A DNA stretch of 64,000 nt from Cytophaga sp. FL35 (lineage in GTDB: Bacteria; Bacteroidota; Bacteroidia; Flavobacteriales; Flavobacteriaceae): assembly GCF_014349235.1 (NCBI RefSeq), contig NZ_JACSOH010000013.1, positions 1 to 64,000 on the forward strand, written 5' to 3'. Of this stretch, positions 952 to 30,509 are shown piece after piece. A program made the translations under genes and the position numbers. The notes beneath the pieces are model-generated. The model saw only the letters and a list, made by a program, of their open reading frames with translations. It made no database searches and was not told where the DNA came from. Within the stretch, counting starts at the first letter, position 1, and every line of letters starts with the position of its first letter.

Positions 952-954
952 CAA

Positions 955-990: not shown

Positions 991-999
991 AAATACTAG

Positions 1000-1159: not shown

Positions 1160-1190
1160 CAAATATAATGGTAATATTCGGGTTCTTCAA
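1160..1190 (-). promoter_or_regulatory. Bacteroidota-type promoter for tRNA-Met
   Basis: Read on the minus strand: TTG at 1190-1188, 20 bases, then TATATTTG at 1167-1160. This matches the TTG/TAnnTTTG pattern of Bacteroidota sigma-ABfr promoters. It lies about 85 bases upstream of the tRNA. Confidence 0.65.
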
Positions 1191-1274
1191 CATTCAATGC
1201 ATAAAAAATATTCTTAGAGTTTTATTTTTTTATCATAAGGAAATATATATATTGCCCATACTTAAAAATAAAGA

Positions 1275-1658
1275 ATGGAGGATAAGTTAAAATTTGAACT
1301 TGAATTTGTAATACAGGCTTCCCCACAATTACTGTATCAATATATATCAACGCCCTCAGGTTTGTCTGAGTGGTTCGCGGACAATGTAAATTCTAGAGGA
1401 GAGATTTTCAATTTTATTTGGGATGGTGCCGAAGAAGAAGCCAAATTACTTAAACGTAAAAGTGAGGAATTTGTAAAGTTTACCTGGGTAGACAACGAAG
1501 ATGATTCCTTTTTTGAAATGAAAATAATAGTGGACGAGATTACCAAAGATGTTTCACTTTTTATTACAGATTTTGCAGAAGAAGATGAGGTAGAGGAAGC
1601 TAAAATGTTGTGGAGAAATCAAGTAGGTGACCTTAAACAGGTATTAGGGTCTAAGTAG
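1275..1658 (+). CDS. START-like domain protein (SRPBCC fold)
   Basis: A 127-residue acidic cytosolic protein. The N-terminal half (LKFELEFVIQASPQLLYQYIS, then GLSEWFADNV) is characteristic of the START-like/AHSA1 group of the SRPBCC superfamily, whose helix-grip fold encloses a hydrophobic cavity. In Bacteroidota this short form is conserved as a single-domain protein of unknown ligand, often beside a class IV aminotransferase gene as here. The C-terminal part is a long acidic stretch ending in an amphipathic helix. A terminator at 1687-1715 follows, so it is probably its own transcript. Family is fairly certain; ligand and role are unknown. Confidence 0.8.
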   Translation: MEDKLKFELEFVIQASPQLLYQYISTPSGLSEWFADNVNSRGEIFNFIWDGAEEEAKLLKRKSEEFVKFTWVDNEDDSFFEMKIIVDEITKDVSLFITDFAEEDEVEEAKMLWRNQVGDLKQVLGSK

Positions 1659-1686
1659 GCTCCTTTACTACATTAACCTTATATTT

Positions 1687-1715
1687 GGGCCTTAAATTTT
1701 TTTAAGGCTTTTTTT
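1687..1715 (+). terminator. Rho-independent terminator abutting the next start codon
   Basis: GCCTTAAA (1689-1696), loop of four T, TTTAAGGC (1701-1708), then seven T running to 1715. The next gene's ATG begins at 1716, so terminator and translation start touch. Confidence 0.75.
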
Positions 1716-2558
1716 ATGGTCAATTTTAACGGAAGATTACTGCAGGGAGAACTTTTTTTGAATCATGAAAACAGAGGCCTTCGCTATGGAGATTCCCTTT
1801 TTGAAAGTTTTAGGTGCATAAACGGTAAACTTATTTTTTGGGAAGACCACTATCTAAGACTCATGGCTTCCATGCGAATTCTACGTATGGAAATTCCTAT
1901 GGATTTTACCATGGAGTTTTTGGAAGAAAAGGTTCTTGAAACCATCAAGGGGAAGGATTTAAAGAACGTGCCTGCCCGTGTGCGGTTTACGGTCTACAGA
2001 AATAACGGTGGACTCTACCTTCCAACAACCAATGATATTTCATACATCATAGAAGCAAAGGCTTGGAATCAACCCTTTTTTGTATTAAATGAGGAAGCCT
2101 ATGAGGTGGAATTGTACAAAGACTTTTATGTGAATCCAGATATGCTTTCCAATTTAAAAACCAATAACAAGGTTCTTCATGTGGTTGGAAGCATTTATGC
2201 AGAGGAGAACGGATATGACAACTGTCTATTGGTCAATAATCAAAAGCAGGTAGTAGAAGCTTTAAATGGTAATCTATTCGTTGTAAAAGGGAATGAAATA
2301 AAGACACCACCTCTAGAAAACGGATGCTTAAACGGAATTTTGAGAAAAAAGTTGATAGAAATATTGAAAAAGGATGTCGATATCAACTTGGTAGAAGAGG
2401 CCGTGTCACCTTTTGAACTGCAAAAGGCAGATGAATTGTGGATTACCAATAGTATAATAGGGATTCAACCGGTGACCAAATACAGAAAAAAAACCTATGA
2501 AAATAAAGTGGCGAAAAGCCTTTTAGGAAAATTAAATGCCTTGGCCCGTCTAAGTTAG
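1716..2558 (+). CDS. Class IV aminotransferase (PLP-dependent; BCAT/ADC-lyase type)
   Basis: A 280-residue fold-type IV PLP enzyme. The N-terminal part has the family's RGLRYGDSLFESFR segment (residues 20-33) and HYLRLMASM. The Schiff-base lysine is most likely K152 in the LKTNNK stretch. E181 in VVEALNGNLF corresponds to the conserved Glu that contacts the pyridine nitrogen. The family includes branched-chain aminotransferase (IlvE), D-amino acid aminotransferase and 4-amino-4-deoxychorismate lyase (PabC). The sequence does not show which reaction applies. PabC-like activity is plausible because the protein is short and lacks BCAT-specific segments. The start codon follows the preceding gene's terminator directly, so any native promoter must lie further upstream or inside the hairpin region. 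It converges with yqgE, four bases separating the stops. Confidence 0.8.
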   Translation: MVNFNGRLLQGELFLNHENRGLRYGDSLFESFRCINGKLIFWEDHYLRLMASMRILRMEIPMDFTMEFLEEKVLETIKGKDLKNVPARVRFTVYRNNGGLYLPTTNDISYIIEAKAWNQPFFVLNEEAYEVELYKDFYVNPDMLSNLKTNNKVLHVVGSIYAEENGYDNCLLVNNQKQVVEALNGNLFVVKGNEIKTPPLENGCLNGILRKKLIEILKKDVDINLVEEAVSPFELQKADELWITNSIIGIQPVTKYRKKTYENKVAKSLLGKLNALARLS

Positions 2559-2562
2559 GATA

Positions 2563-3123
2563 TTAATTTAGACTTGGGTTTTCCGGGGAGTTGGACCACA
2601 GCAGATAATTTCCTCCCAGCTCTAGCATTTTTTCTTTCCAAAAAGCATCCGCAGCCTTATTGATAATATCGCTTTCATAGTCGTTCTGGACCACAATCCA
2701 TGATTTGGAAGTGAGCTCTCTATCTAATTGAAGAGAAGACCAACCAGAATATCCTAGAAAAAACCGAATGTCATTTTCTGAAATGACCTGTTTGTTGATC
2801 AAATCGATGATTTTTTCAAAATCACCTCCCCAATAGATTCCATCGGAAATTTCAATACTATTTTCAATTAAATGGGGCACCCTATGTATAAAATAGAGGT
2901 TGTCTTGCTCTACGGGACCGCCATTATAGACTTGAAAAGGAATGGAAATCTCATTTATCAAATCATTGATAAAATACTCCAAAGGTTTGTTTAGAATGAA
3001 GCCAACGGAGCCTTCTTCATTATGTTCAGCCAATAAAACAACAGACCGGTTAAAGGAGACATCACCTGTAAGGGCCGGTTCTGCAATAAGTAGCTTGCCT
3101 TTATGTGGTTTAAATTCGGTCAT
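2563..3123 (-). CDS. YqgE/AlgH family protein (DUF179)
   Basis: A 186-residue cytosolic protein. The start GKLLIAEPALTGDVSFNRSV and the block EGSVGFILNKPLE are the hallmark sequences of the YqgE/AlgH family, and the length is typical. In pseudomonads AlgH influences alginate and other regulation; the biochemical role is still unsettled, so I assign the family only. It is transcribed toward the aminotransferase gene. The HU gene lies upstream on the same strand, separated by a strong hairpin terminator, so it is likely transcribed on its own. Confidence 0.88.
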   Translation of the reverse strand: MTEFKPHKGKLLIAEPALTGDVSFNRSVVLLAEHNEEGSVGFILNKPLEYFINDLINEISIPFQVYNGGPVEQDNLYFIHRVPHLIENSIEISDGIYWGGDFEKIIDLINKQVISENDIRFFLGYSGWSSLQLDRELTSKSWIVVQNDYESDIINKAADAFWKEKMLELGGNYLLWSNSPENPSLN

Positions 3124-3191
3124 AAGCTGGCATTCTAGGTCATATATTATCTAAAATAAGATATTTCTTATAAAAATCCACATATGGGCAT

Positions 3192-3221
3192 AAAAAAAGC
3201 GCTTCAATCGAAGCGCTTTTA
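3192..3221 (-). terminator. Terminator after the HU gene
   Basis: AGCGCTTC (3198-3205), loop AATC, GAAGCGCT (3210-3217), flanked by an A-run on one side and a T-run on the other. It would work in both directions and ends the minus-strand HU transcript. Confidence 0.8.
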
Positions 3222-3242
3222 TATTATAACTTGTAAGACTAA

Positions 3243-3515
3243 TTAGTTTACAGAGTTTGCCAAGTCAGATCCAGCTTTGAACTTAACAACATTCTTAGCC
3301 GCGATTTTAATAGTTTTACCTGTAGATGGGTTTCTACCTTCTCTAGCGTTTCTTTTAGAAACTGACCAAGAACCGAATCCTACCAATGATACACGATCAC
3401 CTTTTTTAAGAGAACCCTCAACGTTACCCAAGAAAGATTCCAATGCTTTTTTAGCTGCCGCTTTTGTGATGCCGGCATCTGCTGCCATAGCATCAATCAA
3501 TTCTGTTTTGTTCAT
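3243..3515 (-). CDS. hup: HU/IHF family nucleoid DNA-binding protein
   Basis: A 90-residue protein covering the whole HU fold: N-terminal helices MNKTELIDAMAADAG, then VSLVGFGSWSVSKRNAREGRNPSTGK, which forms the beta arms. The RNPSTGK segment with the family's conserved Pro sits at the tip that intercalates DNA. HU dimers bend and compact DNA. The gene has its own well-formed promoter (3561-3590) and terminator, in line with strong independent expression. Sequence does not separate HU-alpha, HU-beta or a homodimer, but the single gene here would suit a homodimer. Confidence 0.95.
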   Translation of the reverse strand: MNKTELIDAMAADAGITKAAAKKALESFLGNVEGSLKKGDRVSLVGFGSWSVSKRNAREGRNPSTGKTIKIAAKNVVKFKAGSDLANSVN

Positions 3516-3560
3516 AATGTAATTAAATTAATTGTTGTTATAATAATTTAAATCGTCTAA

Positions 3561-3590
3561 CAAATTTATACGGATTTGCCTGCAACGCAA
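3561..3590 (-). promoter_or_regulatory. Promoter of the HU gene
   Basis: Minus strand: TTG (3590-3588), 19 bases, TAAATTTG (3568-3561). This is a close match to the Bacteroidota consensus. Predicted transcription start is about 40 bases before the HU ATG. Confidence 0.7.
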
Positions 3591-3692
3591 GTAAAATGGG
3601 GGTAAATCGGGGTTTTTGTTGATAACTCAGGGGGTTTGTTAATAAAGTAGGGCTTTTTTTACCTTCTCTCGCAGGCCAATAACCACGGGGCT

Positions 3693-4640
3693 TTACAACA
3701 TTCGTGCATTTTTCTCCAATTGAAGGCCGTTTAGGATGTCTTTGGTACTCATTCTTCTTTTGCCAGGTAATTGCATCTCCAATATATTAAGAAAACCATC
3801 TTTTACAGCCACCTTTATTTCCTTTTTTGAGCTCACAATAGTCCCCACATCTAGTTGATGATCTTCTTTTTCACGTTCGGAAACATAGATTTTTACAATT
3901 AAATCTTCCGCTCCATTCGTCATTTTTGTCCAAGCAGCAGGGTAGGGGCTCAAACCCCTAATATGGTTATGAATATCTTCAAGGGAATTGTTCCAATCAA
4001 TTTTACAAGTGTCCTTATGAATTTTAAATGCCTCTTTAAACTTTGTTTTTTGCGGTTGTTGAGTGGTGATAATGGGGCCCTTTTCTATTTCTTTTACTGT
4101 CTTAAGTACAAGGTCGGCTCCAAGGTTCATCAATTTGTCATGTAAAACACCGGCGTTGTCATTGGGTTCGATGGCGGTCTTTTCTTGAAGGATTATTTCA
4201 CCGGTGTCTATCTTTTCATCAATAAAGAATGTAGTTACGCCTGTTTCCGTTTCCCCATTCATTATAGCCCAGTTTATAGGAGCTGCACCTCTATAGTCCG
4301 GCAATAGGGATGCATGTAGGTTGAAAGTGCCAAACTCAGGCATGGACCATACAGCTTTTGGTAGCATTCTAAAGGCTACCACTATTTGTAGGTTTGCATT
4401 GAGACTTTTTAACTCGGTTAAAAAATCTTCATTTTTAAGATTGGTTGGTTGCAGCACTTGTAACCCAGCTTCCAACGCATATTTTTTAACATCGCTCATC
4501 TGTACTTTTCTGCCTCTGCCTGCTGGTCTGTCCGGTGCTGTTATAACACCCACAACATTATACTTGGCTTTAACCAAAGTTTTGAGTGTGGTTGCAGCAA
4601 ATTCTGGAGTGCCCATAAAAACTATTCGTACGTCTTTCAT
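3693..4640 (-). CDS. fmt: Methionyl-tRNA formyltransferase
   Basis: A 315-residue enzyme that formylates initiator Met-tRNA using 10-formyl-tetrahydrofolate. The N-terminal Rossmann-like domain begins RIVFMGTPEFA. The hydrolase-type catalytic triad is visible as N107 and H109 (in FNLHASLLPDYRGAAPINWA) and D145 (in DEKIDTGEI). The SLLPxYRGAAPINWA block is diagnostic for Fmt rather than other formyltransferases. The C-terminal domain (about 205-315) is the oligonucleotide-binding-like tRNA-binding part. Length is normal. It lies 20 bases downstream of recQ on the same strand and is probably last in an AAA-recQ-fmt operon. No terminator is obvious after its stop. Confidence 0.95.
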   Translation of the reverse strand: MKDVRIVFMGTPEFAATTLKTLVKAKYNVVGVITAPDRPAGRGRKVQMSDVKKYALEAGLQVLQPTNLKNEDFLTELKSLNANLQIVVAFRMLPKAVWSMPEFGTFNLHASLLPDYRGAAPINWAIMNGETETGVTTFFIDEKIDTGEIILQEKTAIEPNDNAGVLHDKLMNLGADLVLKTVKEIEKGPIITTQQPQKTKFKEAFKIHKDTCKIDWNNSLEDIHNHIRGLSPYPAAWTKMTNGAEDLIVKIYVSEREKEDHQLDVGTIVSSKKEIKVAVKDGFLNILEMQLPGKRRMSTKDILNGLQLEKNARML

Positions 4641-4660
4641 ACTCTTAATTTTGGCTACGC

Positions 4661-6556
4661 TTACCGTAGCTCATATTCATTTTTTGTGTTGATTTTTATT
4701 TTTTCCTGCTCGAGAAGGCTCCTTAAAGCTTTTAGTAAAATAGGTTCTTCTATGTTTAAGTGTTCACTCAGAATACGTGAACTCTTAGCACCGGCATCTA
4801 GCAAGTGTGTAATAGATTCTTGGACCTTTATAATTGAAACGTTGCTCCCATACTTTTCTAGGCAAACATCACATCTTTTACAATCATCCGATAGTCTTTC
4901 TCCAAAATAGGTCAGTAATTGTTTACTACGGCATATGCTGGTCGTATGAACGTATTTCATCATTGCTCTTAGCTTTTCAGCTTTTTTATGATTGAGTTCT
5001 TTTACCTTATACGCAAAAACATTGATGGTGCGGTCATCTTCCCTTGGTACCAAAAATGTAAGGTCTAAATCATTGTGCTTACTTACGTAAGCAATGATTT
5101 CATCCCTTTCCAGTTGCTCTAAAATAGAAAGAATCTGTGCTTCTGGAAGTCCGGTTTTCTGGGCAACTAGATGGGTGTTAATCTTTGTTTCAAAATCAAA
5201 TATACCTCCGTAAGTCCTAAGAATTGTTTTAACGGCTAATTCAGCTCTCGGATAGACCTCTAAATAATCGAATATTTTCTCTTTGCGCGCTATAAATTGT
5301 ACGCTAGTAAGTTTCGAAAATGATTCCGATAAGGAAATGACCGAATACTGATCCAATACTTTTAGTGAGTTATAGGCCAAATACGGATTTAGTTTATAAA
5401 TGGACACAAACTCATTAAAGTTAAATTGAAAACTTTCATTATGTCCTTCCCCAAAGGAAATCTGAAAATAATTATTGAGTTTGTTATACAATTTTTTTAA
5501 GAATGAGGTATCTGGTAGTGAACCTAAAAACTGCTTCTTCAATAAACTTTCATCCTCTTCATTTGTAAGTAGAATTGCTTGGGCAGATCGGCCGTTTCTA
5601 CCGGCCCTACCTGCTTCTTGAAAATAATTTTCAAGACTATCCGGAATTTGATAATGCACTACTAGGCCAACATCTGGTTTATCTACCCCCATACCAAAGG
5701 CGTTAGTGGCTACCATAATCAAAACATCATTATTGAGCCATTGTTGAAGTTTGTCCTGTTTATCCTTTTTGGTCAATCCCCCATGAAAAAAAGTGGCGCT
5801 TATTTGATTGGAATTCAAATAATGTGCAAGTTTTACCGTCATCTTCCTGGAGCTGGTATACACAATGCCACTGCTCTTGTTGCGACCGCAAAGTTGTTTT
5901 AGTTGGTAAAGTTTATCTTCCGTAATTTTTACTTTAAATGCAATGTTCTCCCTTAAAAAGGAATCCTTTACATTTAAAGGCTCTTTTAAGTTTAGATGGG
6001 TAATTATGTCTTTGGCAACCTCCCTAGTGGCCGTCGCCGTCAAGGCCATTATAGGTGTTGTTGGAAGAAGGACCCTTAATTGTCCACAATCCAAATAAGC
6101 CGGTCTAAAATCATGTCCCCATTGAGATATGCAATGCGCTTCATCAATGGCAATGAGATTCACGTTCATCTGTTGGATGCGCTCTATTACCAAATCTTGT
6201 TGCAATCTTTCCGGAGATAGGTAAAGAAACTTATAGCCGCCATAGAGGCAGTTGTCCAATTGTTGTACAAGTTCTTCAAAAGATATTCCCCCTGTTAGGG
6301 CAATAGCTTTAATTCCACGGTTTTTTAAATTGGTAACTTGGTCATGTATCAAGGCTACCAAAGGGGAGACAACAATACAAATTCCTTCTTGGGACATGGC
6401 AGGAACTTGAAAACAAATAGATTTTCCTCCTCCGGTAGGAAGGAGGGCCAAGACATCCTCACCGTTAAGGGCGGCCTGAATTATCTTTTTCTGGGAGCCT
6501 CTAAAACCTGAAAAGCCCCAATACCGTTGTAATGTATCTCTGGGGTCTGTTATCAT
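4661..6556 (-). CDS. recQ: ATP-dependent DNA helicase RecQ
   Basis: A 3'-5' superfamily 2 helicase of about 631 residues. Visible motifs: LLPTGGGKSICFQ (Walker A, near residue 40), IDEAHCISQWGHDFRP (DEAH box and aromatic loop, near 138-150), and motif VI in FQEAGRAGRNGR. A zinc-binding Cys set follows (SICRSKQLL ... DDCKRCDVCL). A winged-helix-like tail is present; no clear HRDC domain is seen, giving the shorter Bacteroidota form. I choose the ATG at 6556: its A is the last base of the upstream gene's TGA stop. A TTG one codon earlier is also possible. Translational coupling to the upstream AAA gene is likely. Role: repair and processing of recombination intermediates. Confidence 0.95.
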   Translation of the reverse strand: MITDPRDTLQRYWGFSGFRGSQKKIIQAALNGEDVLALLPTGGGKSICFQVPAMSQEGICIVVSPLVALIHDQVTNLKNRGIKAIALTGGISFEELVQQLDNCLYGGYKFLYLSPERLQQDLVIERIQQMNVNLIAIDEAHCISQWGHDFRPAYLDCGQLRVLLPTTPIMALTATATREVAKDIITHLNLKEPLNVKDSFLRENIAFKVKITEDKLYQLKQLCGRNKSSGIVYTSSRKMTVKLAHYLNSNQISATFFHGGLTKKDKQDKLQQWLNNDVLIMVATNAFGMGVDKPDVGLVVHYQIPDSLENYFQEAGRAGRNGRSAQAILLTNEEDESLLKKQFLGSLPDTSFLKKLYNKLNNYFQISFGEGHNESFQFNFNEFVSIYKLNPYLAYNSLKVLDQYSVISLSESFSKLTSVQFIARKEKIFDYLEVYPRAELAVKTILRTYGGIFDFETKINTHLVAQKTGLPEAQILSILEQLERDEIIAYVSKHNDLDLTFLVPREDDRTINVFAYKVKELNHKKAEKLRAMMKYVHTTSICRSKQLLTYFGERLSDDCKRCDVCLEKYGSNVSIIKVQESITHLLDAGAKSSRILSEHLNIEEPILLKALRSLLEQEKIKINTKNEYELR

Positions 6557-7119
6557 CAAATCAAGTTAAGGTGGTCTAGGATAAAATCTGTGCGCTTTTC
6601 TACAGAATCCTTGGGAATCAAAGTAACATCATATCCAAATTTTATATAAGTACTCTGCAGGCTTTCAAATATCCTTAAGGACTCCTCATAGGTCTCAAAC
6701 CGTTCATTGTCAACGGCGTAAATTTCTTCCCACGGGGGCATAATTAAAATGTGATCATACCTATAATCATAATTGGGTTGGGCAAAATCCTGATCATAAC
6801 TTTGATCGAAACAATGCATGTAGGCGTGAACATCTGGTATGCCCCTATCAAAAAAAACTACATTCGTATTTTTTTTGAGTGCATTTTGGTATTGGCCCAC
6901 GCGCCCATCTAACAAGGCCTTATTAAATTTTTCCGGGTCTTTGACAGAGACTATAGGGTTGGTTATAAATTCATCTTCATTGCCCTCTTTTTTTTCTGCC
7001 GATGTCATACTTCGTATCAACTCATGAACGCAGAAATAACCTTTTTTTTCCAAAAGGTCTATGACGGAAGTCTTTCCGGTGCTAGGGCCGCCTGTAATTA
7101 CTACTTTTAATGGATTCAA
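6556..7119 (-). CDS. AAA-domain nucleotide-binding protein (AAA_28/NadR-like)
   Basis: A P-loop protein of about 187 residues. VVITGGPSTGKTSVIDLL is a clear Walker A near the N-terminus, and VVFFDRGIPDVHAY resembles the kinase-like Walker B/DR region of the AAA_28 group (NadR kinase, Ttd14-like). Substrate is unknown. An in-frame ATG exists at 7158, but I prefer the TTG at 7119. It places the start just before the P-loop strand as in other members, and a TACTTTTG promoter element (7139-7146) lies inside the longer version. It overlaps the recQ start by one base, so the two are probably co-transcribed. Confidence 0.75.
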   Translation of the reverse strand: MNPLKVVITGGPSTGKTSVIDLLEKKGYFCVHELIRSMTSAEKKEGNEDEFITNPIVSVKDPEKFNKALLDGRVGQYQNALKKNTNVVFFDRGIPDVHAYMHCFDQSYDQDFAQPNYDYRYDHILIMPPWEEIYAVDNERFETYEESLRIFESLQSTYIKFGYDVTLIPKDSVEKRTDFILDHLNLI

Positions 7120-7138
7120 TAGAAAAGCGTTAGTACCG

Positions 7139-7146
7139 CAAAAGTA
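7139..7146 (-). promoter_or_regulatory. Possible -7 element of the AAA-recQ-fmt operon
   Basis: Minus-strand TACTTTTG fits TAnnTTTG. No TTG is seen at the right upstream distance. Transcription from it would start about 13 bases before the TTG start at 7119. Confidence 0.4.
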
Positions 7147-7185
7147 ATCAATCCCCAACTATTTTAAAATGCTAGGGGGAAGGAC

Positions 7186-7193
7186 TACCTTTG
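7186..7193 (+). promoter_or_regulatory. Possible -7 element of the DUF493 gene
   Basis: TACCTTTG, a full match to TAnnTTTG, lies 13 bases before the DUF493 ATG. The transcript would have a very short leader. A -33 TTG at standard distance is not apparent. Confidence 0.5.
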
Positions 7194-7206
7194 TAAAAAC
7201 ATTTGT

Positions 7207-7494
7207 ATGGACCAGAATAAATCTGAAGAGTTTTACGCTAGGTTATTAGACCAATTAAAGGAAAGTACCACATGGCCCTCTAATTACCTTTATAAATTCA
7301 TTGTGCTGAGCGATCCGGAGAAAATTGACCAAATCCAAAAAATTTTTGATAATACGGGAGCTGTTATCGAATCTAAAAAATCTAAAAAGGGGAAGTATAC
7401 GAGCGTTTCCGTAACTGTGAATCTCAAAAGTCCGGAGGAGGTAATCGCAAAATATAAGGAAGTAGGCCAAGTAGAGGGTGTTATTTCGCTGTAA
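7207..7494 (+). CDS. DUF493 family protein (YbeD-like)
   Basis: A 95-residue cytosolic protein whose second half (YKFIVLSDPEKIDQIQKIFDN ... TSVSVTVNLKSPEEVIAKYKEVGQVEGVISL) matches the small ACT-like ferredoxin fold of the DUF493/YbeD family. E. coli YbeD is structurally like the regulatory domain of 3-phosphoglycerate dehydrogenase, but its role is unknown. It is the first of three plus-strand genes (DUF493, DUF4290, murA). The 81-base gap to the next gene has no terminator, so read-through is possible. Confidence 0.85.
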   Translation: MDQNKSEEFYARLLDQLKESTTWPSNYLYKFIVLSDPEKIDQIQKIFDNTGAVIESKKSKKGKYTSVSVTVNLKSPEEVIAKYKEVGQVEGVISL

Positions 7495-7575
7495 ATAGCT
7501 TTTGACCTATAATTTTCTTAATTTGCAGGCGTTATTAGTTTACTTCCACTTATTTTTAAGCAAAATAGTTTTAGT

Positions 7576-8223
7576 TTGAATCCACCAGTAGAGACCCTAG
7601 AATATAATACGGAGCGTTCAAAGCTCATAATACCGGAATACGGTCGTCATTTTCAAAAAATGGTAGACTATGCCGTATCTATAGAAGACGAAGAGGAGCG
7701 CAATAGAATTGCACAGGCAATTATTAGCGTTATGGGCAATATCCAACCCCATTTGCGCGATGTGCCCGATTTTCAGCATAAACTTTGGGACCAGCTTTTT
7801 ATTATGTCCGATTTTAAACTGGATGTAAAATCTCCCTTTCCCATTACCAGTCAGGAAACATTACAAAAACGTCCTGATCCTTTGGAGTATCCTCAAAATC
7901 ATCCAAAGTACCGGTTTTACGGTAATAATATCAAAAGGATGATCGATGTGGCCGTAAAATGGGAAAAAGGGGATATGAGAGATGGCTTGGAATATACCAT
8001 TGCCAATCATATGAAAAAATGCTATCTCAACTGGAACAAGGATACAGTGGATGATAAGGCAATTTTTGATCACCTATATGAATTGAGCGATGGACAAATA
8101 GACCTTTCTGGGGAGAACCTTACGGATAGCGGGCAATTTTTGAAAAATAAAGTGTCCAAATCCAATCGTAGTTCCAGTAAAAAAAATTCAAGAAACAATA
8201 ATCGCGGTAAAAAGCGATACTAA
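7576..8223 (+). CDS. DUF4290 domain protein
   Basis: A 215-residue cytosolic protein with the DUF4290 signature VETLEYNTERSKLIIPEYGRH near its start and LKWDQL-like and YPKYRFYGNNIKRMID blocks later. The last 25 residues are a Ser/Asn/Lys/Arg-rich basic tail (KSNRSSSKKNSRNNNRGKK), possibly nucleic-acid binding. The reading frame opens at TTG (7576), which matches where homologues start, and no better ATG lies nearby. The family is confined to Bacteroidota and usually sits next to murA, as here (15 bases). Function unknown. Confidence 0.85.
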   Translation: MNPPVETLEYNTERSKLIIPEYGRHFQKMVDYAVSIEDEEERNRIAQAIISVMGNIQPHLRDVPDFQHKLWDQLFIMSDFKLDVKSPFPITSQETLQKRPDPLEYPQNHPKYRFYGNNIKRMIDVAVKWEKGDMRDGLEYTIANHMKKCYLNWNKDTVDDKAIFDHLYELSDGQIDLSGENLTDSGQFLKNKVSKSNRSSSKKNSRNNNRGKKRY

Positions 8224-8238
8224 TATCCAACATCTTAC

Positions 8239-9546
8239 ATGGGCACCTTTAAAATTGAAGGCGGCCACCGGTTATCTGGTGAAATTACGCCGCAAGGGGC
8301 TAAAAATGAGGCTCTGCAAATACTTTGTGCTGTACTTTTAACAGCAGAAGAAGTTACCATCCATAACATACCCAACATTGTAGACGTTAACAAGCTCATT
8401 TCTATATTAGAGGATTTGGGCGTAAAAATCCAGAAGAAAAGCAAAGGTTCCTACACCTTTAAAGCGGATGATGTTAATCTAGATTATTTACAATCCGAAC
8501 AATTTAAACAAGATGGGCGCGGACTTCGTGGATCCATTATGTTGGTTGGACCGTTATTGGCAAGGTTCGGTAAGGGTTACATTCCCAAACCCGGTGGCGA
8601 TAAGATCGGTCGCAGAAGATTGGATACCCACTTTGAAGGTTTTATCAATCTAGGGGCCAAATTCAGATACAATAAGGAGGAGTATTTTTACGGGGTAGAG
8701 GCCGATAAACTTCAGGGAACCTATATGCTTTTAGACGAGGCATCCGTAACTGGTACAGCCAATATTCTTATGGCAGCTGTTTTGGCAGAAGGAAAGACAA
8801 CAATTTACAATGCCGCTTGTGAGCCTTACTTACAGCAACTTTGCAAAATGTTGAACCGTATGGGCGCCAAGATTTCAGGAGTTGGTTCAAACTTATTGGA
8901 GATTGAAGGAGTAAAAGAACTGGGAGGTACGGATCACACCATGCTTCCGGATATGATTGAAATTGGTAGCTGGATAGGTTTGGCTGCCATGACCCGAAGC
9001 GAGTTGACTATCAAAAATGTAAGTTGGGACGACTTAGGACAAATTCCTACCGTATTTAGAAAACTGGGTATTCAACTTGAGCGAAAAGGAGATGATATTT
9101 ACATTCCTGAACATAAGGACGGGTATGAAATACAGAATTATATAGATGGTTCCATTTTGACCATTGCAGATGCTCCTTGGCCTGGTTTAACTCCAGATTT
9201 ATTAAGTATCATATTGGTTGTGGCCACTCAGGCAAAAGGGGAAGTGCTAATTCATCAGAAAATGTTTGAAAGCCGTCTTTTCTTTGTGGATAAGTTATTG
9301 GATATGGGTGCTAAAATCATCCTTTGTGATCCGCATAGGGCTACCGTCATTGGTCACAATTTCAAATCCACCTTGAAGGCTACAACCATGACATCGCCCG
9401 ATATTAGGGCAGGGGTTTCATTGCTTATTGCCGCATTATCTGCGAAAGGTACTTCAACCATTCACAATATAGAGCAAATAGATAGAGGGTATGAAGACAT
9501 AGACACCCGTTTACAGGCCATTGGCGCCAAAATTACCAGGGTTTAA
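8239..9546 (+). CDS. murA: UDP-N-acetylglucosamine 1-carboxyvinyltransferase with Asp at the catalytic Cys site
   Basis: A 435-residue enzyme transferring enolpyruvate from PEP to UDP-GlcNAc, the first committed step of peptidoglycan synthesis. Visible features are the KNEA motif with K22/N23 and RGSIMLVGPLLARFGKG in the first alpha-beta domain. The active-site loop reads KPGGDKIGRRRLD: the residue equivalent to E. coli Cys115 is D121. Asp at this site still supports catalysis in MurA of other bacteria and prevents covalent inactivation by fosfomycin, so intrinsic resistance is predicted. Length is normal and no second copy is in the window. It follows DUF4290 closely and is probably co-transcribed. 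Confidence 0.95.
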   Translation: MGTFKIEGGHRLSGEITPQGAKNEALQILCAVLLTAEEVTIHNIPNIVDVNKLISILEDLGVKIQKKSKGSYTFKADDVNLDYLQSEQFKQDGRGLRGSIMLVGPLLARFGKGYIPKPGGDKIGRRRLDTHFEGFINLGAKFRYNKEEYFYGVEADKLQGTYMLLDEASVTGTANILMAAVLAEGKTTIYNAACEPYLQQLCKMLNRMGAKISGVGSNLLEIEGVKELGGTDHTMLPDMIEIGSWIGLAAMTRSELTIKNVSWDDLGQIPTVFRKLGIQLERKGDDIYIPEHKDGYEIQNYIDGSILTIADAPWPGLTPDLLSIILVVATQAKGEVLIHQKMFESRLFFVDKLLDMGAKIILCDPHRATVIGHNFKSTLKATTMTSPDIRAGVSLLIAALSAKGTSTIHNIEQIDRGYEDIDTRLQAIGAKITRV

Positions 9547-9548
9547 GT

Positions 9549-9962
9549 TTACCAAGGAAACCACAGAAGGTTCCATATGAATACAAGGGTCCACACCACG
9601 GTGCGGACCCAATTTTTTTGTATTAGCCTTTGAATGAGTTTAGGGGTATAATTGTCTTCTGAAATTCTTTTATGTGCGGGAGCAAAAAAACTAAAAGTAA
9701 ATGCCCATACGAAAAGGATCAACAATAGGTTAACCAAAGAATACCAAGAAAATCCTTTTGTAATTTCAACAAGTATTAAACCTAATTGTCCGAACATTAG
9801 GGGAATGACCACTAATGCAATTCGATGCACATAAATGGGATGCCATTGATTCAAATCCGGCTTAGCGTAATTTTTAAAACTTGGATAAATGATAAGTTGC
9901 ACCATCCATATAAGAACCACCAACCCAAAGTCAAAAAGCAGTTGACAAATCTTTAAGGTCAT
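9549..9962 (-). CDS. Four-helix membrane protein of unknown function
   Basis: A 137-residue protein with four hydrophobic segments (about residues 7-26, 47-65, 76-94 and 118-136) joined by short loops. A HPIYVHRIALVVIP motif lies in the second segment. It resembles small DUF-type inner-membrane proteins of Flavobacteria, but I do not recognise a named family. The ATG at 9962 is preferred to the GTG one codon upstream. It is convergent with murA, with two bases between stops and no terminator in the gap. An imperfect 24-base palindrome near 9587-9611 falls inside codons for the last helix and is probably incidental. Confidence 0.7.
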   Translation of the reverse strand: MTLKICQLLFDFGLVVLIWMVQLIIYPSFKNYAKPDLNQWHPIYVHRIALVVIPLMFGQLGLILVEITKGFSWYSLVNLLLILFVWAFTFSFFAPAHKRISEDNYTPKLIQRLIQKNWVRTVVWTLVFIWNLLWFPW

Positions 9963-10260
9963 CACAGTTTAATTTAAAAGGTCAAGTGTTTAATGAATTG
10001 GTTCAGCTTGTAGAATAATAGATTTGTTGGAGGACTATGTCTAAAAGGAAACAAGTTTAATTTCCAAACTAAAATAGTAGATTTTGAATTCAAAAGATTT
10101 TTTTCGCTAATAGGAACAGCAGTTCAAATTAAGAAAGAAAGTATTAGAATCCAATCATGTACATAGGGCATTAGGTCTGTTTAGGCAATATATTTAGGTG
10201 GTTAACAGTTATTAAGTAAGTCTTTGTTTCAAAACAAGACCTAAACCAAACTTAACCGAT
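9963..10260. other. Intergenic region between two divergent genes
   Basis: About 300 AT-rich bases holding the upstream regions of the membrane-protein gene (left) and the DUF6340 gene (right). I see no full TAnnTTTG element, RNA gene or long inverted repeat. Confidence 0.5.
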
Positions 10261-11310
10261 ATGAGCGCTTTCCGTATTTTACTCACGACTGCTTTTCTGA
10301 CCATGATTTTTACCAGCTGTAGTTCTACCAGTACGCTGACCATGGGGGTTTTAGAACCTGCACGAATTAACGTACCCAATGATGTTGTTAAAGTGGGTCT
10401 AATCAACAGGAGTTTACCTTCTGAGAGTAACAAGACCGTTGATAAAATTGATAAAATCCTCTCTCTGGAAGGACTCAACCTTGACAAAGAGGGAGCGGAG
10501 GCAGCAGTTTCAGGGTTGTATGATGAACTAACGGCCATTAATAGATTCGAATCCGTTAAGGTTTTAAATGATATTGAGGTTCAAAAGAAAGGATTAGGGG
10601 TTTTTCCTGCAGCGTTAAGTTGGCAAGATGTTGAGAAGATTTGCGAAGAAAATGGGGTGGATGCGCTTTTATCCCTGGAAATGTACGATACCGATACTAA
10701 GGTGAATTTTGAAACCAAAATGATAAACATTCCCAATAATCTGGGAATAAAGGCGAATGTACCCGGACACAAGGTGACCTTGTTTACTACGATAAAAAAC
10801 GGATGGCGTGTTTACAATCCCAACCACAAAATTGTCTTGGATGAAATTGTCGAAAATCACCAAGTGGTCAGTCATGGCGAGGGAATCAATCCCATGAAGG
10901 CCGTGGAAGCTATAATAGGAAGAAAGGAAGCAGTATTACAGACAAGTACAAATTTAGGTAGCGCGTACGCCTCAGATTTAAGGCCTTTGAGCAGAAGGGT
11001 GACCAGGGAGTATTTTGTTAAGGGAACCGATAATTTTAAAATCGCCCAAAGAAGAGCACAAACTGGCGATTGGGATGGTGCAGCAGACTTATGGGAGCGT
11101 GAAGTTCAAAATCCTGATATGAAAATAGCTGGGCGGGCTTGTTACAATATGGCCATTATCAACGAAATTAATGGAGACCTGAACAAGGCCATGGAGTGGG
11201 CCTCAAGGTCGTATGCTGATTATGAAATTAGCAACGCTCTTAGGTATGTGAATATCTTAAAACATCGAATGTCAGAGCAGCGAATACTCGACAAGCAATT
11301 GGCAAGATAA
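10261..11310 (+). CDS. DUF6340 family lipoprotein with TPR-like C-terminus
   Basis: A 349-residue lipoprotein: a hydrophobic N-terminus ends at FTSCSSTSTL, so the mature N-terminal Cys is about residue 20. The following LEPARINVPNDVVKVGLINRS block is typical of DUF6340 proteins of Bacteroidota. These have a central region for an outer-membrane-associated fold (GVDALLSLEMYDTD) and a C-terminal pair of helical repeats (IAQRRAQTGDWDGAADLWER ... CYNMAIINEINGDLNKAMEW) resembling TPRs. Function is unknown; a periplasmic or outer-membrane assembly role is only a guess. It is convergent with the photolyase gene, two bases apart. Confidence 0.8.
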   Translation: MSAFRILLTTAFLTMIFTSCSSTSTLTMGVLEPARINVPNDVVKVGLINRSLPSESNKTVDKIDKILSLEGLNLDKEGAEAAVSGLYDELTAINRFESVKVLNDIEVQKKGLGVFPAALSWQDVEKICEENGVDALLSLEMYDTDTKVNFETKMINIPNNLGIKANVPGHKVTLFTTIKNGWRVYNPNHKIVLDEIVENHQVVSHGEGINPMKAVEAIIGRKEAVLQTSTNLGSAYASDLRPLSRRVTREYFVKGTDNFKIAQRRAQTGDWDGAADLWEREVQNPDMKIAGRACYNMAIINEINGDLNKAMEWASRSYADYEISNALRYVNILKHRMSEQRILDKQLAR

Positions 11311-11312
11311 AT

Positions 11313-12623
11313 TTAGCTCACGGCTTCCTTATAGACTTTCAAGCAGCGTTCCCGAGCCTCTTTATGATCGACCATTTTATCGGGATAAGAATCCGAATCA
11401 TGCTCTGGAACCCACTCTGAAATATATTTTTTATCCTTATCAAATTTATCGACCTGGGTCATAGGATTAAAAATTCTGAAATAAGGGGCAGCATCCACAC
11501 CGCTACCCGCGGCCCATTGCCAATTACCTACGTTACTGCTCATTTCATAATCCAGTAATTTTTCAGCAAAATAAGCTTCGCCCCAGCGCCAGTCAATAAG
11601 CAAATGTTTACATAGAAAACTGGCGACCAACATACGAACGCGATTATGCATGTATCCGGTTTCATTAAGTTCGCGCATTCCGGCATCCACCAATTTAAAT
11701 CCCGTTTCACCCTTTTTCCATTTTTCAAATTCCTCTTCATTGTTCCTCCAATCTATTCGGTCGTACTTTTTCTTAAAAGCCTCGTTGACCGTTTTCGGAT
11801 AATGGTAAAGGATTTGCATAAAAAATTCCCTCCAAATAAGTTCGCTCCAAAAAACTTCGTTCTTTTCGGCAATAGCTTTTTTGACCATTTTACGAACGGA
11901 AACGGTACCAAAGCGCAAATGAGGACCTAAACGTGAAGTACCTTGGTCTTTGGCAGGAAAGTTTCTTGTTTTCTCGTAATTCTGGATGAGGGTAGGGGTC
12001 ACCGTAAAATCGGGAACTTTAACGGATGAGGTTTTAAAACCGATATCGCTTAAAGATAAGTTGGGTAGTCGGCTATTTTTAACAAGGTTATCTAAATATT
12101 GACTTGTGTAATGAATGTTCAAGTGTTCATCAGCTTTAAAATGCTCCTTCCACTTATTTTTATAAGGAGTGTAAACTATATAGGGGTCACCATCATCTTT
12201 TACCACCTCGTCTTTTTCAAAGATAACTTGGTCTTTAAAGGTTTTAAACTCAATATCGCTATCATTCAGTAGCTTCTTGATTTCATCATCCCGTTCACTC
12301 GCATAAGGTTCATAATCGTGGTTGGTATACACGCAATCAATTTGGTAGTCAGAAACGAGTTCTTTGAAAATTTGCTTTGGAGTACCATGATACATTGCGA
12401 TTGAACTTCCGTATGCTTCTTGAAGTTCTTTCCTCATATTCTGAAGCGTTTCATGAATAAACGTTACCCGAGCATCGTCTTCTGGTAATTTGTCCAGTAT
12501 TTCAGAATCGAAAATAAAAATAGGCATTACTGGATAATCTCCTTTTAATGCCGCCAAAAAGCCTACGTTATCATCTAAGCGTAAATCCCTTCGAAACCAA
12601 AAAACTGAAATCTTATCAGACAT
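11313..12623 (-). CDS. phr: Cryptochrome/photolyase family protein (class I CPD photolyase type)
   Basis: A 436-residue flavoprotein. The N-terminal photolyase domain starts VFWFRRDLRLDDN. The FAD-binding domain shows GTSRLGPHLRFGTVSVR (about 230-246), WSELIWREFFMQI, DAGMRELNETGYMHNR and NVGNWQWAAGSGVDAAPYFR, the last two being the strongest family blocks around the flavin and lesion pocket. All are intact and length is normal, which favours a working light-driven pyrimidine-dimer repair enzyme over a cryptochrome without repair activity. It is the last gene of an SRPBCC-SDR-photolyase operon on the minus strand, 21 bases after the SDR gene. In many Bacteroidota these three travel together. 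Confidence 0.92.
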   Translation of the reverse strand: MSDKISVFWFRRDLRLDDNVGFLAALKGDYPVMPIFIFDSEILDKLPEDDARVTFIHETLQNMRKELQEAYGSSIAMYHGTPKQIFKELVSDYQIDCVYTNHDYEPYASERDDEIKKLLNDSDIEFKTFKDQVIFEKDEVVKDDGDPYIVYTPYKNKWKEHFKADEHLNIHYTSQYLDNLVKNSRLPNLSLSDIGFKTSSVKVPDFTVTPTLIQNYEKTRNFPAKDQGTSRLGPHLRFGTVSVRKMVKKAIAEKNEVFWSELIWREFFMQILYHYPKTVNEAFKKKYDRIDWRNNEEEFEKWKKGETGFKLVDAGMRELNETGYMHNRVRMLVASFLCKHLLIDWRWGEAYFAEKLLDYEMSSNVGNWQWAAGSGVDAAPYFRIFNPMTQVDKFDKDKKYISEWVPEHDSDSYPDKMVDHKEARERCLKVYKEAVS

Positions 12624-12644
12624 AAAATTTAATATTTCCTTTCT

Positions 12645-13337
12645 TTAATTAATATTCAATGTAGATAGGCCACCATCTAAATGTAAAACCTGTCCCGTTA
12701 TCCAACTGCTATCATCCAGTAAAAGGAATTTAGCCATTTTTGCTATTTCATCTGGGTTGCCTACCTTTTTCAGTGGATGCCGCTCCGCCATTTGCTCTTG
12801 TTTTTTCTCGTTGCTCAATAGTTTACTTGCCAATGGGGTATCTACCAATGAAGGAGCGATTACGTTTACCCTTAGTTTTGGAGCATATTCCGCCGCCAAT
12901 GATTTTGCAAAGCCTTCTATTGCTCCTTTTGCGGCAGCAATACTCGTGTGGTATGGCATACCCGTTCCTACAGCGACGGTACTAAAGAAAACTAGGGAAC
13001 TGTTCTGGGTAAATAGGGCCATAAGTTCTTTAAGAACTTTTACAAGACCAATAAAATTTAAGTTTAACTCTTCCTCAAATGCGTTGACTCCTAACATTTT
13101 AAAAGGTTTTAGATTTATACTACCAGGACAGTAGACAAATCCGTTAATTTCATTTGGTAAGGACGTAGTATCCAAGGTGTCTTTGGTAACGTCAAAAGGA
13201 ATGTGGGTTACATTTAATGATTCCAGCTTATCAATAGTACGCGAAGCGACATAAACGTTGTGATGTTCCGAAAGTATTTTTGCCAATGAAAATCCAATTC
13301 CATGAGAACCTCCTATCAATACAATATTTTTTTTCAT
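12645..13337 (-). CDS. Atypical short-chain dehydrogenase/reductase, catalytic Tyr absent
   Basis: A 230-residue Rossmann-fold protein. GGSHGIG (residues 9-15) is the NAD(P)-binding glycine motif, the conserved Ser is S119 (FFSTVAVG), and NVIAPSLVDTPL is the usual later block. The active-site motif is normally Tyr-x3-Lys; here Lys is K137 in YHTSIAAAKGA and the residue four before it is Ile133. The nearest Tyr is Y129, eight before the Lys. The enzyme therefore lacks the standard proton donor. This may be a family trait of photolyase-linked SDRs. Twelve bases follow the SRPBCC gene and 21 precede the photolyase gene, so co-transcription is very likely. Substrate unknown. Confidence 0.88.
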   Translation of the reverse strand: MKKNIVLIGGSHGIGFSLAKILSEHHNVYVASRTIDKLESLNVTHIPFDVTKDTLDTTSLPNEINGFVYCPGSINLKPFKMLGVNAFEEELNLNFIGLVKVLKELMALFTQNSSLVFFSTVAVGTGMPYHTSIAAAKGAIEGFAKSLAAEYAPKLRVNVIAPSLVDTPLASKLLSNEKKQEQMAERHPLKKVGNPDEIAKMAKFLLLDDSSWITGQVLHLDGGLSTLNIN

Positions 13338-13349
13338 GTGTTTATTGAT

Positions 13350-13847
13350 TTAAATCGCTTTCATGTAAAATTCTCGATTACCGTTGGGCATAGTACCAAA
13401 AAGCTCAATAAGTTTTTGTTCTCTAAAGGAAAATATTTGTCTCAATTGCTTCTTGACCAATAAAGGATGGGCTAACTGCCCTAAAATGCCCATTGGAAGC
13501 TTATAATCAATAATATCCTCCATTTCAACTCCCCCTTCTATCTCTTTTATGAAGTGCTTATGGTGCCATAATGCATAGGGGCCAAAACGTTGTTCATCTA
13601 CGAAATATTCACCCTCCTTGACATGGGTAATTTCTGTTACCCAACGTGTATTGACCACAGGAAAAGGTGAAACTTTGTACTGAATAATTTGACCCGGGAA
13701 CATAGGCCTGTCTGCTCCAGATAGTATGTGAAATCCCATATGATCAGGGGTAATTACCTTTAAATTTTTGGGGTCTGATAGAAATTCCCATGCTTGATCT
13801 TTTGAAATAGGTAGGTCTTGTTTAGAATATAGTTGATATAGTTTCAT
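13350..13847 (-). CDS. SRPBCC family ligand-binding protein
   Basis: A 165-residue single-domain protein. The pattern YSKQDLPISKDQAWEFLSDPKNLKVITP at the start and VEMEDIIDYKLPMGILGQLAHPLLVKKQLRQIFSFRE at the end is characteristic of SRPBCC proteins annotated as cell-division inhibitors or cyclase-like proteins. These bind hydrophobic small molecules in a helix-grip cavity. The ligand is unknown. It leads the operon with the SDR and photolyase genes, and a TATCTTTG element (13861-13868) sits 13 bases before the ATG, so the leader is very short. The context suggests a light- or oxidative-stress-related role, which is inference. Confidence 0.82.
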   Translation of the reverse strand: MKLYQLYSKQDLPISKDQAWEFLSDPKNLKVITPDHMGFHILSGADRPMFPGQIIQYKVSPFPVVNTRWVTEITHVKEGEYFVDEQRFGPYALWHHKHFIKEIEGGVEMEDIIDYKLPMGILGQLAHPLLVKKQLRQIFSFREQKLIELFGTMPNGNREFYMKAI

Positions 13848-13860
13848 TACTACTTTTGTT

Positions 13861-13868
13861 CAAAGATA
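13861..13868 (-). promoter_or_regulatory. -7 element of the SRPBCC-SDR-photolyase operon
   Basis: Minus-strand TATCTTTG, a full match to TAnnTTTG, just upstream of the first gene. The same octamer stands before the LacI and PIG-L genes. No clear -33 TTG is at the standard distance. Confidence 0.5.
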
Positions 13869-13971
13869 TATTCATTTTGTTTAATAATAAATTAAAATAG
13901 TTAAACAACTAGTTTTTTCATGGATTGAGTTCTATTTCTGTCGAATTTGTACATTCATCACCCGAAATGCT

Positions 13972-15144
13972 ATGAAACACTTTTTCCACTTTTTTATAGT
14001 ACCATTGGTACATTTTGCATCCTACGCTCAAGTGAATATAGAGGTTATAGGAGACCTCCCTGAGGAGATATGGGAAACATCTGGGCTTGTTTATGATTTC
14101 GGTAGGTTAGTAACGCACAATGATTCCAGCAACGAACCTATATTATATGAATTGGATACGGTAAACTTGACTGTAAAAAGACGAGTGGAAATTACCAATG
14201 CAGAAAATGTTGATTGGGAAGACGTAGCTCAAGATGACGATTACTTTTACATAGGTGATATTGGTAATAATAGAGGGGTACGAAGAGATTTAAGTATTCT
14301 AAAAATTTTAAAGAAGGATTTTTTTTCGTTGGATAAAATAGAGGCTGAAAGGATACAATTTACGTATGAGGACCAATTGGATTTTGAAGATAGCGGAAAC
14401 TCTGACTGGGATGCAGAAGCCTTGTTTGTTTACCAAAATGAAATTATTATCCTCACTAAACAATGGAAGACAAATGGAACTGTAGCCTATTCGTTGCCTA
14501 AAACTAGCGGGACCCATACAGCCCAAAAACTGGATGGTTATCAAATAAACGGATTGGTTACCGGGGCCACTCTTCAAAATGAAATTTTAATTTTAGTAGG
14601 ATACTCCAATTTGTTAAATCCATTTATTGCCAAAATTACTGGACTTGAAAAAGGAAGCATTTTTGGAGGTCAAATAGAACAGGAACGGTTGCAAATTGGA
14701 ATATCTCAAGTAGAAGCTGTCACTTTTGCTCGGGAAACTGAATTATTCATTAGTAGTGAGAATTATGAGAATAGTAATTTATCGCTCAACTTCAAATCTC
14801 GGCTATATAAGGTAAGGTTTGTTGACAATAGTTCAGATGATTCTCCGGATGTTGAAAACCCTCCTCAGGAAACTCCCAAGGATTCTACAAATATTCCATT
14901 GCAGGAGCACATTAGAATAAAGAATAGTCCAACGGACTCTGTTCTTACCATTGAGTCGGACATTGAGTTTGGAACAATAGAGTACCTACATATTTTTGAT
15001 GTTACAGGCAGAAGTATAAAAGAAATTCTTTTACCGGATGCCAACCCTTACTACGTAGACGTTTCTGATTTTCCAGTTGGGGTATACTTTATGACGATTA
15101 AAGGCGGTAAGAAGTTGATTTCCAAATCATTTGTGGTTGATTGA
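13972..15144 (+). CDS. Secreted protein with T9SS C-terminal sorting domain
   Basis: A 390-residue exported protein. A Sec signal peptide ends near SYAQVNIEV (residues 1-20). The central part (about 20-290) has repeating blade-like segments (YELDTVNLTVKRRVEITNAENVDWEDVAQDDDYFYIGDIGNN, AEALFVYQNEIIILTKQW) suggestive of a beta-propeller, with acidic loops that could bind calcium. A Pro/Asp/Ser-rich linker (about 290-310) leads to a C-terminal domain with VTGRSIKEI and FPVGVYFMTIKGGKKLISKSFVV. This is the type A sorting signal of the type IX secretion system, which carries cargo to the cell surface. No enzymatic motif is recognised. It diverges from the photolyase operon. Confidence 0.8.
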   Translation: MKHFFHFFIVPLVHFASYAQVNIEVIGDLPEEIWETSGLVYDFGRLVTHNDSSNEPILYELDTVNLTVKRRVEITNAENVDWEDVAQDDDYFYIGDIGNNRGVRRDLSILKILKKDFFSLDKIEAERIQFTYEDQLDFEDSGNSDWDAEALFVYQNEIIILTKQWKTNGTVAYSLPKTSGTHTAQKLDGYQINGLVTGATLQNEILILVGYSNLLNPFIAKITGLEKGSIFGGQIEQERLQIGISQVEAVTFARETELFISSENYENSNLSLNFKSRLYKVRFVDNSSDDSPDVENPPQETPKDSTNIPLQEHIRIKNSPTDSVLTIESDIEFGTIEYLHIFDVTGRSIKEILLPDANPYYVDVSDFPVGVYFMTIKGGKKLISKSFVVD

Positions 15145-15193
15145 GCACCTTTAATTTAAGTATTTATTAACAAACTCAATTTTAGTTTATAAC

Positions 15194-15201
15194 TAGTTTT
15201 G
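15194..15201 (+). promoter_or_regulatory. Possible -7 element of the DUF2911 gene
   Basis: TAGTTTTG, a full match to TAnnTTTG, lies 22 bases before the DUF2911 ATG. The -33 position has only TTTA-like sequence. Confidence 0.45.
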
Positions 15202-15223
15202 AGAAACTATAAAATCAATTCAA

Positions 15224-16072
15224 ATGAAAAAATTATTCCTTTTAACCTTTGCTTTTTTACTTTCAATGGTAGCGGAAGCGCAAATAGCCACACCTGCCCC
15301 AAGTCCTTTCTCCAAATTGGAGCAAAAAGTAGGTTTAACAGATGTTACAGTTGAGTATTCAAGACCTTCTATGCGTGGTAGAAAAATCTTTGGTGAATTA
15401 GAATCTTATGGGGAAATATGGCGCACAGGTGCGAATGCCAGAACCAAGATAACATTTAGTGATGACATTAAGGTTGCGGGGCAAACCTTAGCCGCAGGTT
15501 CCTATGCCTTATATACCAAACCCGGTCAACAGTCTTGGGAAATTTATTTCTACACCGAAGCCGATGGCGGAGGATACCCACAGGAATGGGATGATTCCAA
15601 AGTAGCGGCTAAAACAACCGTAGATGCTTACCAATTACCTGTAGATATTGAAACTTTTACCATCACTTTAGATGATTTAACGAATAGTTCTGCCTTATTG
15701 GGATTAATGTGGGAGCGTACTTATGTAGGTATACCCTTGGAGTTTCCAACAGACGAAAAGGTATCTAAAAGCATAGAAAGTGTTATGTCCGGAAGCCCTA
15801 CCGCCAATGACTATTTTGGTGCGGCAGTTTATTATTCTTCAGAAGACAAGGACATAGCCCAAGCCGATAAATGGATGGACAAGGCCATGGAAATGACTGA
15901 TGAGCCTGCCTTTTGGCAATTACGCCAGCAATCCTTGATCAAAGCAAAGGCCGGAGATAAAAAAGCAGCAATTAAAGCCGCGAAAGCGTCTTTGGCAAAA
16001 GCGAAGGAAGCGGGTAATGATGATTATATCAAAATGAATACCGATTCTCTAAAAGAATGGGGAGCTAAGTAA
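15224..16072 (+). CDS. DUF2911 domain protein, exported
   Basis: A 282-residue exported protein with a signal peptide cleaved near VAEAQIATP. The block VTVEYSRPSMRGRKIFG ... GEIWRTGANARTKITFSDDIKVAG, then LAAGSYALYTKPG, is the DUF2911 signature, and that domain fills residues 25-165. The rest is an alpha-helical region with a TPR-like half (AAVYYSSEDKDIAQADKWMDKAME) and a Lys/Ala-rich repeat of AAIKAAKASLAKAKEAG. The function of DUF2911 is not known. The gene has a candidate promoter at 15194 and a bidirectional terminator just beyond, so it is monocistronic. Confidence 0.88.
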   Translation: MKKLFLLTFAFLLSMVAEAQIATPAPSPFSKLEQKVGLTDVTVEYSRPSMRGRKIFGELESYGEIWRTGANARTKITFSDDIKVAGQTLAAGSYALYTKPGQQSWEIYFYTEADGGGYPQEWDDSKVAAKTTVDAYQLPVDIETFTITLDDLTNSSALLGLMWERTYVGIPLEFPTDEKVSKSIESVMSGSPTANDYFGAAVYYSSEDKDIAQADKWMDKAMEMTDEPAFWQLRQQSLIKAKAGDKKAAIKAAKASLAKAKEAGNDDYIKMNTDSLKEWGAK

Positions 16073-16088
16073 CTTAAATACTTGAAAA

Positions 16089-30407: not shown

Positions 30408-30509
30408 TTACTTAAAGGATATCATTATGAAACAGAATACCAATACGTAAATAACATTGAGTATGAGTACAATGGAGTATTCCTTCTTCCAATTAGAATT
30501 GTCTAACAT
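30408..30509 (-). CDS. Predicted 33-residue single-span membrane protein
   Basis: An unlisted reading frame of 33 codons plus stop fits exactly between the PIG-L stop (30512) and the symporter start (30406), with two bases and one base spacing. It starts ATG at 30509. The peptide begins MLDNSNWKKEYSI, then has a hydrophobic run of about 18 residues (IVLILNVIYVLVFCFIMI), ending SFK. The basic WKKEY before the helix predicts an inside N-terminus. The tight packing and fitting transmembrane helix make a real gene likely: possibly a small accessory subunit of the adjacent sodium symporter, similar in placement to small membrane partners of other transporters. No named family recognised. Confidence 0.65.
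   Translation of the reverse strand: MLDNSNWKKEYSIVLILNVIYVLVFCFIMISFK

Follow-up and report, generated by a model that had tools for sequence, protein, structure and literature searches.

The small open reading frame (ORF) at 30408–30509 on the minus strand of the window (the whole 64,000-nucleotide stretch of DNA that was analysed) is a real gene under selection as a protein. It tracks one orthologue group of sodium:solute symporters (SSS), and neither PIG-L, its upstream neighbour, nor other SSS paralogues. Comparison of the sequences indicates that its product, a 33-residue membrane protein with one helix, probably serves the symporter encoded next to it as a single-pass subunit or stabiliser.

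Location and neighbours of the small gene

The small ORF reads from ATG to TAA (30509 to 30408, stop codon included): MLDNSNWKKEYSIVLILNVIYVLVFCFIMISFK. The gene order on the minus strand is PIG-L (33088–30512), small ORF (30509–30408) and SSS (30406–28673). The 33-residue frame fills the gap between its neighbours exactly, as the initial annotation had stated, with spacers of 2 bases on the PIG-L side and 1 base on the SSS side. The upstream gene encodes a PIG-L family deacetylase (Pfam PIG-L, E 2e-13) and is the usual neighbour in this position. The listed start of its frame is a GTG at 33088. More likely, translation begins a few codons downstream, at an ATG that opens a signal-peptide-like stretch (MRHLLVFLVGLLFIRNIATAQA).

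The downstream gene, which encodes the proposed partner, specifies a sodium:solute symporter (SSS/SLC5) of 577 residues (Pfam SSF, E 7.5e-47). The protein scores 255 bits against TIGR00813 (cut-off 184) and matches NIS, SiaT and SGLT among the PDB sequences. The best Foldseek match to the SSS model of a relative is 5nva (E 1.2e-18). Both the SSF domain and the SSS fold thus place the gene in the family, the fold being seen through the relative's model. Euzebyella saccharophila (L009) is a close relative of the window genome, and its SSS is 99% identical. A same-genus genome (G001) shows 93% identity across the 301-base stretch used as query.

Conservation of the reading frame and protein

We assembled 110 SSS loci, 80 named and 30 further ones; some genomes occur in both sets, and one locus (L089) is the window itself. 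The small ORF was found, open and directly before the orthologous SSS gene, in 110/110 loci, which yielded 98 distinct proteins. It encodes 33 residues in 68 loci and 37 in 20; the lengths range from 33 to 42, with one of 32. The SSS start follows at a distance of 1 base in 77 loci and of 0 bases in 18; the remaining 15 loci have values from −1 to 10. Residues W7, Y11, N18, Y21, F25, and M29 are invariant across the 53 of the 98 distinct proteins that make up alignment A1 (alignment A4 holds 51 sequences).

The DNA bears the marks of a translated frame. Over 26 codons from the Trp codon, in 102 distinct DNA stretches, stop codons occur in the +1 frame of 102/102 and the +2 frame of 44/102, and in none in the real frame. 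The difference by codon position is 0.33 at the first, 0.14 at the second, and 0.53 at the third. Comparison with E. saccharophila shows 6 synonymous and 0 non-synonymous changes. The ratio pN/pS is 0.29 at 55–65% DNA identity and falls to 0.05 above 97%, synonymous change exceeding non-synonymous change in each bin (85 of the 5,151 pairs, below 55% identity, are omitted from the bins). The check on protein-level conservation therefore came out in favour of the gene, which is under purifying selection (pN/pS 0.05–0.29). The earlier view that such packing is rarely due to chance is borne out: the frame is open throughout the 110 loci and is selected as a protein.

Occurrence and linkage to the symporter

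A profile of the small ORF matches 165/199 Flavobacteriaceae genomes, and the SSS itself is present in 177/199 (E up to 1e-100). Places were listed for 149 of the 165 matched genomes. In 147 of these the small ORF lies on the same strand as SSS and upstream of it, within 40 bases in 146 and at 379 bases in one (G128). Of the two exceptions, one has its listed SSS on a different contig, and the other lacks a listed SSS place. In a second set of 115 loci, the small ORF occupies the gap in 114, the exception again being G128. The occurrence of the same small ORF before SSS in other Flavobacteriaceae, which the initial annotation had put forward as a check, is thus found in 110/110 and 114/115 loci and in 147/149 listed genomes.

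We deliberately chose 29 loci from genomes with a weak or no profile match or with a split SSS match. A profile match at E up to 0.01 is present in 24 of them. Three others match weakly (E 0.09–0.4), and a similar frame occupies the gap in each; L174 and L192 have no profile match at all. The profile was broadened by adding members from such loci. In a phylum sample of 395 genomes, the broadened profile matches 105 and the first profile 55. Sixty-six matched genomes lie outside Flavobacteriaceae; 12 of these were already known to have the ORF adjoining SSS. In 44 of the other 54, an SSS relative begins −1 to 97 bases after the ORF. In four the ORF lies 14.6–15.3 kb from SSS, and in one (G263) it precedes an apparent SSS remnant; the remaining five matches (G087, G340, G390, G490, and G539) appear to be chance. 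The ORF adjoins SSS in eleven family-level groups of the phylum, Flavobacteriaceae included.

Of the 16 distant loci inspected first, three (L214, L215, and L216) had no visible SSS. L215 (genome G273) turned out to be a copy separated from its SSS. L214 and L216 were rejected as chance places, better copies in G486 and G380 adjoining their SSS. At locus L439 (about 990–3900), the sequence after PIG-L and a homologue of the small ORF matches only residues 1–29 of SSS (E 8.8e-4); the symporter gene there is apparently decayed or broken.

The linkage is specific to one symporter. Besides this SSS gene, the matches in the window genome include at least six more, and there is only one copy of the small ORF. 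In genomes with several SSS genes, the small ORF adjoins the best-matching one in 12/12.

The membrane helix and its conserved face

Residues 9–31 of the small protein (30417–30485, minus strand) are modelled as a helix, on the basis of AlphaFold models of a relative (L093), hydrophobicity, and periodicity. The window copy reaches a Kyte–Doolittle mean of 2.9 in its best 19-residue segment. The mean number of K and R residues is 2.99 at aligned positions 1–10 versus 0.40 at positions 30–33, and the N-terminal count is the higher in 258/260 sequences, with positions 1–10 extending upstream of the likely start codon in some rows. The positively charged N-terminus and hydrophobic helix noted at the outset hold family-wide. 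According to the positive-inside rule, the positively charged side of a membrane helix stays inside. The positive residues before the helix therefore suggest an N-in/C-out orientation.

Conservation along the helix is periodic. In 247 distinct sequences, the peak lies at 102 degrees per residue, near the pitch of an alpha-helix. The moment at 100 degrees is 9.98, and shuffles average 3.57 (p = 0.00035 for positions 7–29 and p = 0.0017 for positions 10–29). Conservation is confined to one helix face while the opposite face drifts, as expected for a helix that packs on a protein.

Structure models and residue couplings were calculated for the small protein together with SSS. AlphaFold was given two L093-led read-through alignments, in which the stop between the small ORF and SSS was read as glycine. 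Alignment A3 comprises 57 of 60 further read-through rows, the three with TGA being omitted. In the two models, the SSS part has mean pLDDT values of 87.1 and 83.5, and the helix appears at residues 9–31 with pLDDT values of approximately 56–69 and with no confident docking onto SSS. Mean-field couplings between the two proteins were obtained from 252 distinct pairs (Neff 99 at 80%), with three within-cluster and three random shuffles as controls. The pairs M29–I220 (the highest), M29–M209, and V22–A130 exceed the shuffle maximum of 1.48. In the residue table for M29–I220, M is paired with I, and T with V. Shared ancestry could explain this pairing, and we therefore treat it as a hint only; the inter-protein couplings hint weakly at a contact between the small protein and SSS. 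No natural fusion of the two was noticed in an unsystematic look. Since AlphaFold gives no confident placement and the strongest coupling could be explained by ancestry, we claim a probable partner and no binding site.

Proposed role and alternatives

The initial annotation had suggested that the small protein may be a subunit of the symporter or stabilise it. The linkage and the purifying selection support this proposal; the physical interaction and the function we infer from them. The order of a small membrane-protein gene before an SSS gene is known from yhdT–panF, yjcH–actP, and DUF4212–SSS, and was counted in favour of the subunit reading. In the mechanism we propose, the small ORF would encode a single-pass inner-membrane protein with its N-terminus inside and its C-terminus in the periplasm. 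It would be made beside the symporter from what is presumably the same message. The conserved face (W7, Y11, V14, N18, Y21, F25, and M29) would pack against the exterior of SSS, and the small subunit would stabilise or activate the transporter. More tentatively, we would suggest that the symporter imports an amino-sugar-like solute, because a PIG-L deacetylase gene usually lies upstream of the small ORF and because, in a single genus from a different family, genes of the PIG-L and glucosamine-6-phosphate-isomerase families are found beside SSS.

A first alternative is that the small protein helps SSS only transiently, in insertion or assembly or as a regulator of turnover, and is not a lasting subunit. 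The same genomic and selection evidence would fit such a helper, as would the models with no confident docking and two genomes that keep SSS without the small ORF. In the latter (L174 and L192, genomes of approximately 1.7 Mb), the small ORF is absent and PIG-L abuts SSS with 4 and 0 bases between them. They are candidate natural losses; as SSS is kept, the small ORF is not strictly needed there. Homologous gaps without the ORF, which the initial annotation held would speak against the gene, were found only as these rare losses. A general helper would fit less well than a dedicated partner with the fact that the small ORF is linked exclusively to a single SSS group although the genome has several, and we consider a transient role unlikely.

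Less probable still is a cis-acting leader, in which translation of the small ORF couples or tunes translation of SSS and the peptide itself has no job in the membrane. The spacing of −1 to 10 bases in all 110 loci suits translational coupling, and such coupling may exist alongside a subunit role. However, amino acids are constrained along the whole helix face, and the protein is intact where the two genes have been pulled apart. In four genomes of one genus of family f38 (L434–L437), approximately 15 kb of opposite-strand genes lie between the small ORF and SSS. In L434, this insert spans about 938–16086, opposite in strand to the small ORF and SSS, and a WbqC-like gene precedes the small ORF. 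Nine proteins of this locus were scanned, including the upstream one; those of the insert are of the glucosamine-6-phosphate-isomerase family, PIG-L, ECF sigma, FecR, MFS, ROK, PcRGLX-like, and sodium:sulfate-symporter types. The separated small ORF is intact in 4/4 genomes, with 38 residues, the same core, and a C-terminal FNLP. Adding up the non-independent pairs of the four copies gives 29 synonymous and 21 non-synonymous changes. The changes are few, and selection has likely persisted in these genomes after separation from SSS. An intact small ORF despite a separation of approximately 15 kb speaks against a cis leader for SSS, as does the one genome (G128, locus L438) in which a 122-residue ORF (1189–1557) lies between the intact small ORF and SSS. 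A Pfam scan of this 122-residue ORF gave no match.

The small protein could also serve the PIG-L enzyme instead of the symporter, perhaps as its membrane anchor. PIG-L is the next gene upstream in 109/110 loci and lies upstream in 108/115 of the second set. This reading is nevertheless largely refuted and we regard it as very improbable, because a different gene is upstream, with the small ORF and SSS still together, in L182, L185, L187, and the three loci of f38 that were inspected. PIG-L is not needed for the linkage.

Finally, a chance open frame without a product, for which nothing speaks beyond the small size and the lack of a convincing library match, is refuted by the purifying selection and by conservation over many genera, and has next to no probability.

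Implications

SSS symporters are commonly regarded as single proteins. On balance, we favour the view that the SSS group found here in at least eleven family-level groups is a heterodimer with a single-helix subunit of approximately 33 residues that is absent from the libraries used. It would be a bacterial counterpart of SGLT–MAP17, either arisen independently or derived as a stripped-down form of a DUF4212-type two-helix protein. A subunit retained in much of a phylum could be the reason that such symporters may not work when produced by themselves, and the subunit reading, if true, would offer a simple bacterial model for activation of the SGLT–MAP17 type. The two genomes that have apparently lost the small ORF could reveal how SSS manages without it. 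The small protein also adds a family that the libraries have skipped, probably owing to its size.

Comparison with known small partners of symporters

Searches of Pfam and NCBIfam with the window protein gave no family, and the 53 aligned members gave no convincing match in the same libraries. Matches of single members to Synaptobrevin (2/53, best E 0.0035), Git3 (0.0052), CLC_0170 (0.0032), and others were rejected; given the hydrophobic helix, we take them as chance. Against the PDB sequences, the small-ORF profile gave 0 matches at E up to 1, and thus no relation to MAP17. A literature search, which returned mostly the beginnings of abstracts, yielded no description of the small ORF; one hit (PMC10434189), in the excerpt returned, concerned DUF4857 and the like and was a false match. 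In a 2021 review of prokaryotic SSS transporters (PMC7918813), a term search found subunit, accessory, yjcH, DUF, and MAP17 0 times.

The initial annotation had called small partners of SSS transporters little described. This needs correction, as the arrangement is known for DUF4212, DUF997 (YhdT), DUF485 (YjcH), and DUF3311, the gene of the last being given as co-regulated with that of a symporter (PMC9100948, in the excerpt available). In Escherichia coli, the DUF997 gene yhdT precedes panF, overlapping its start by 11 bases, and the DUF485 gene yjcH precedes actP, overlapping its start by 4; the gene order is that of the small ORF and SSS. YhdT and YjcH, both small proteins of the inner membrane, have 80 and 104 residues (from annotated coordinates) versus 33 in the window protein. 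In 60 genomes of the class, the window genome included, no DUF997 match passes the cut-off; the sole match lies below it and contains a stop.

DUF4212 genes, too, encode a small membrane protein directly before an SSS gene. The DUF4212 protein has approximately 80 residues and two hydrophobic stretches, whereas the small protein has 33 residues and one helix. The 53 members gave no match to Pfam DUF4212 (PF13937), DUF997, or DUF485 at E up to 10. In an hhalign comparison, W7 aligned with the conserved W of DUF4212 in the same register. Homology was rejected: column shuffles reach the score in 15/200 cases (all columns) and 46/200 (helix columns only), and we therefore retain only a likeness in how the two work, and no membership. 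The window genome also has a DUF4212 gene (L227 on contig C5, 1492–1752, minus strand), 47 bases before an SSS gene that starts at 1444 on the same strand. Two kinds of small SSS neighbour thus coexist in this genome.

A further likeness is to MAP17 (PDZK1IP1), which has a single membrane helix. MAP17 sits at the periphery of SGLT2, on M13, and is essential for SGLT2 (PMC9616851, as far as the excerpt goes). With human SGLT1 and SGLT2, it is a partner of an SLC5/SSS transporter, and we propose a similar relation here. The SSS described here shares the fold of chain A of SGLT2–MAP17, as judged from the relative's model. MAP17 is human and lacks an operon link, whereas the gene of the small protein adjoins that of its SSS. 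Membership in any of these families is not supported by sequence; in its anatomy, the small protein would work like MAP17 or like the DUF4212, DUF485, and DUF997 proteins.
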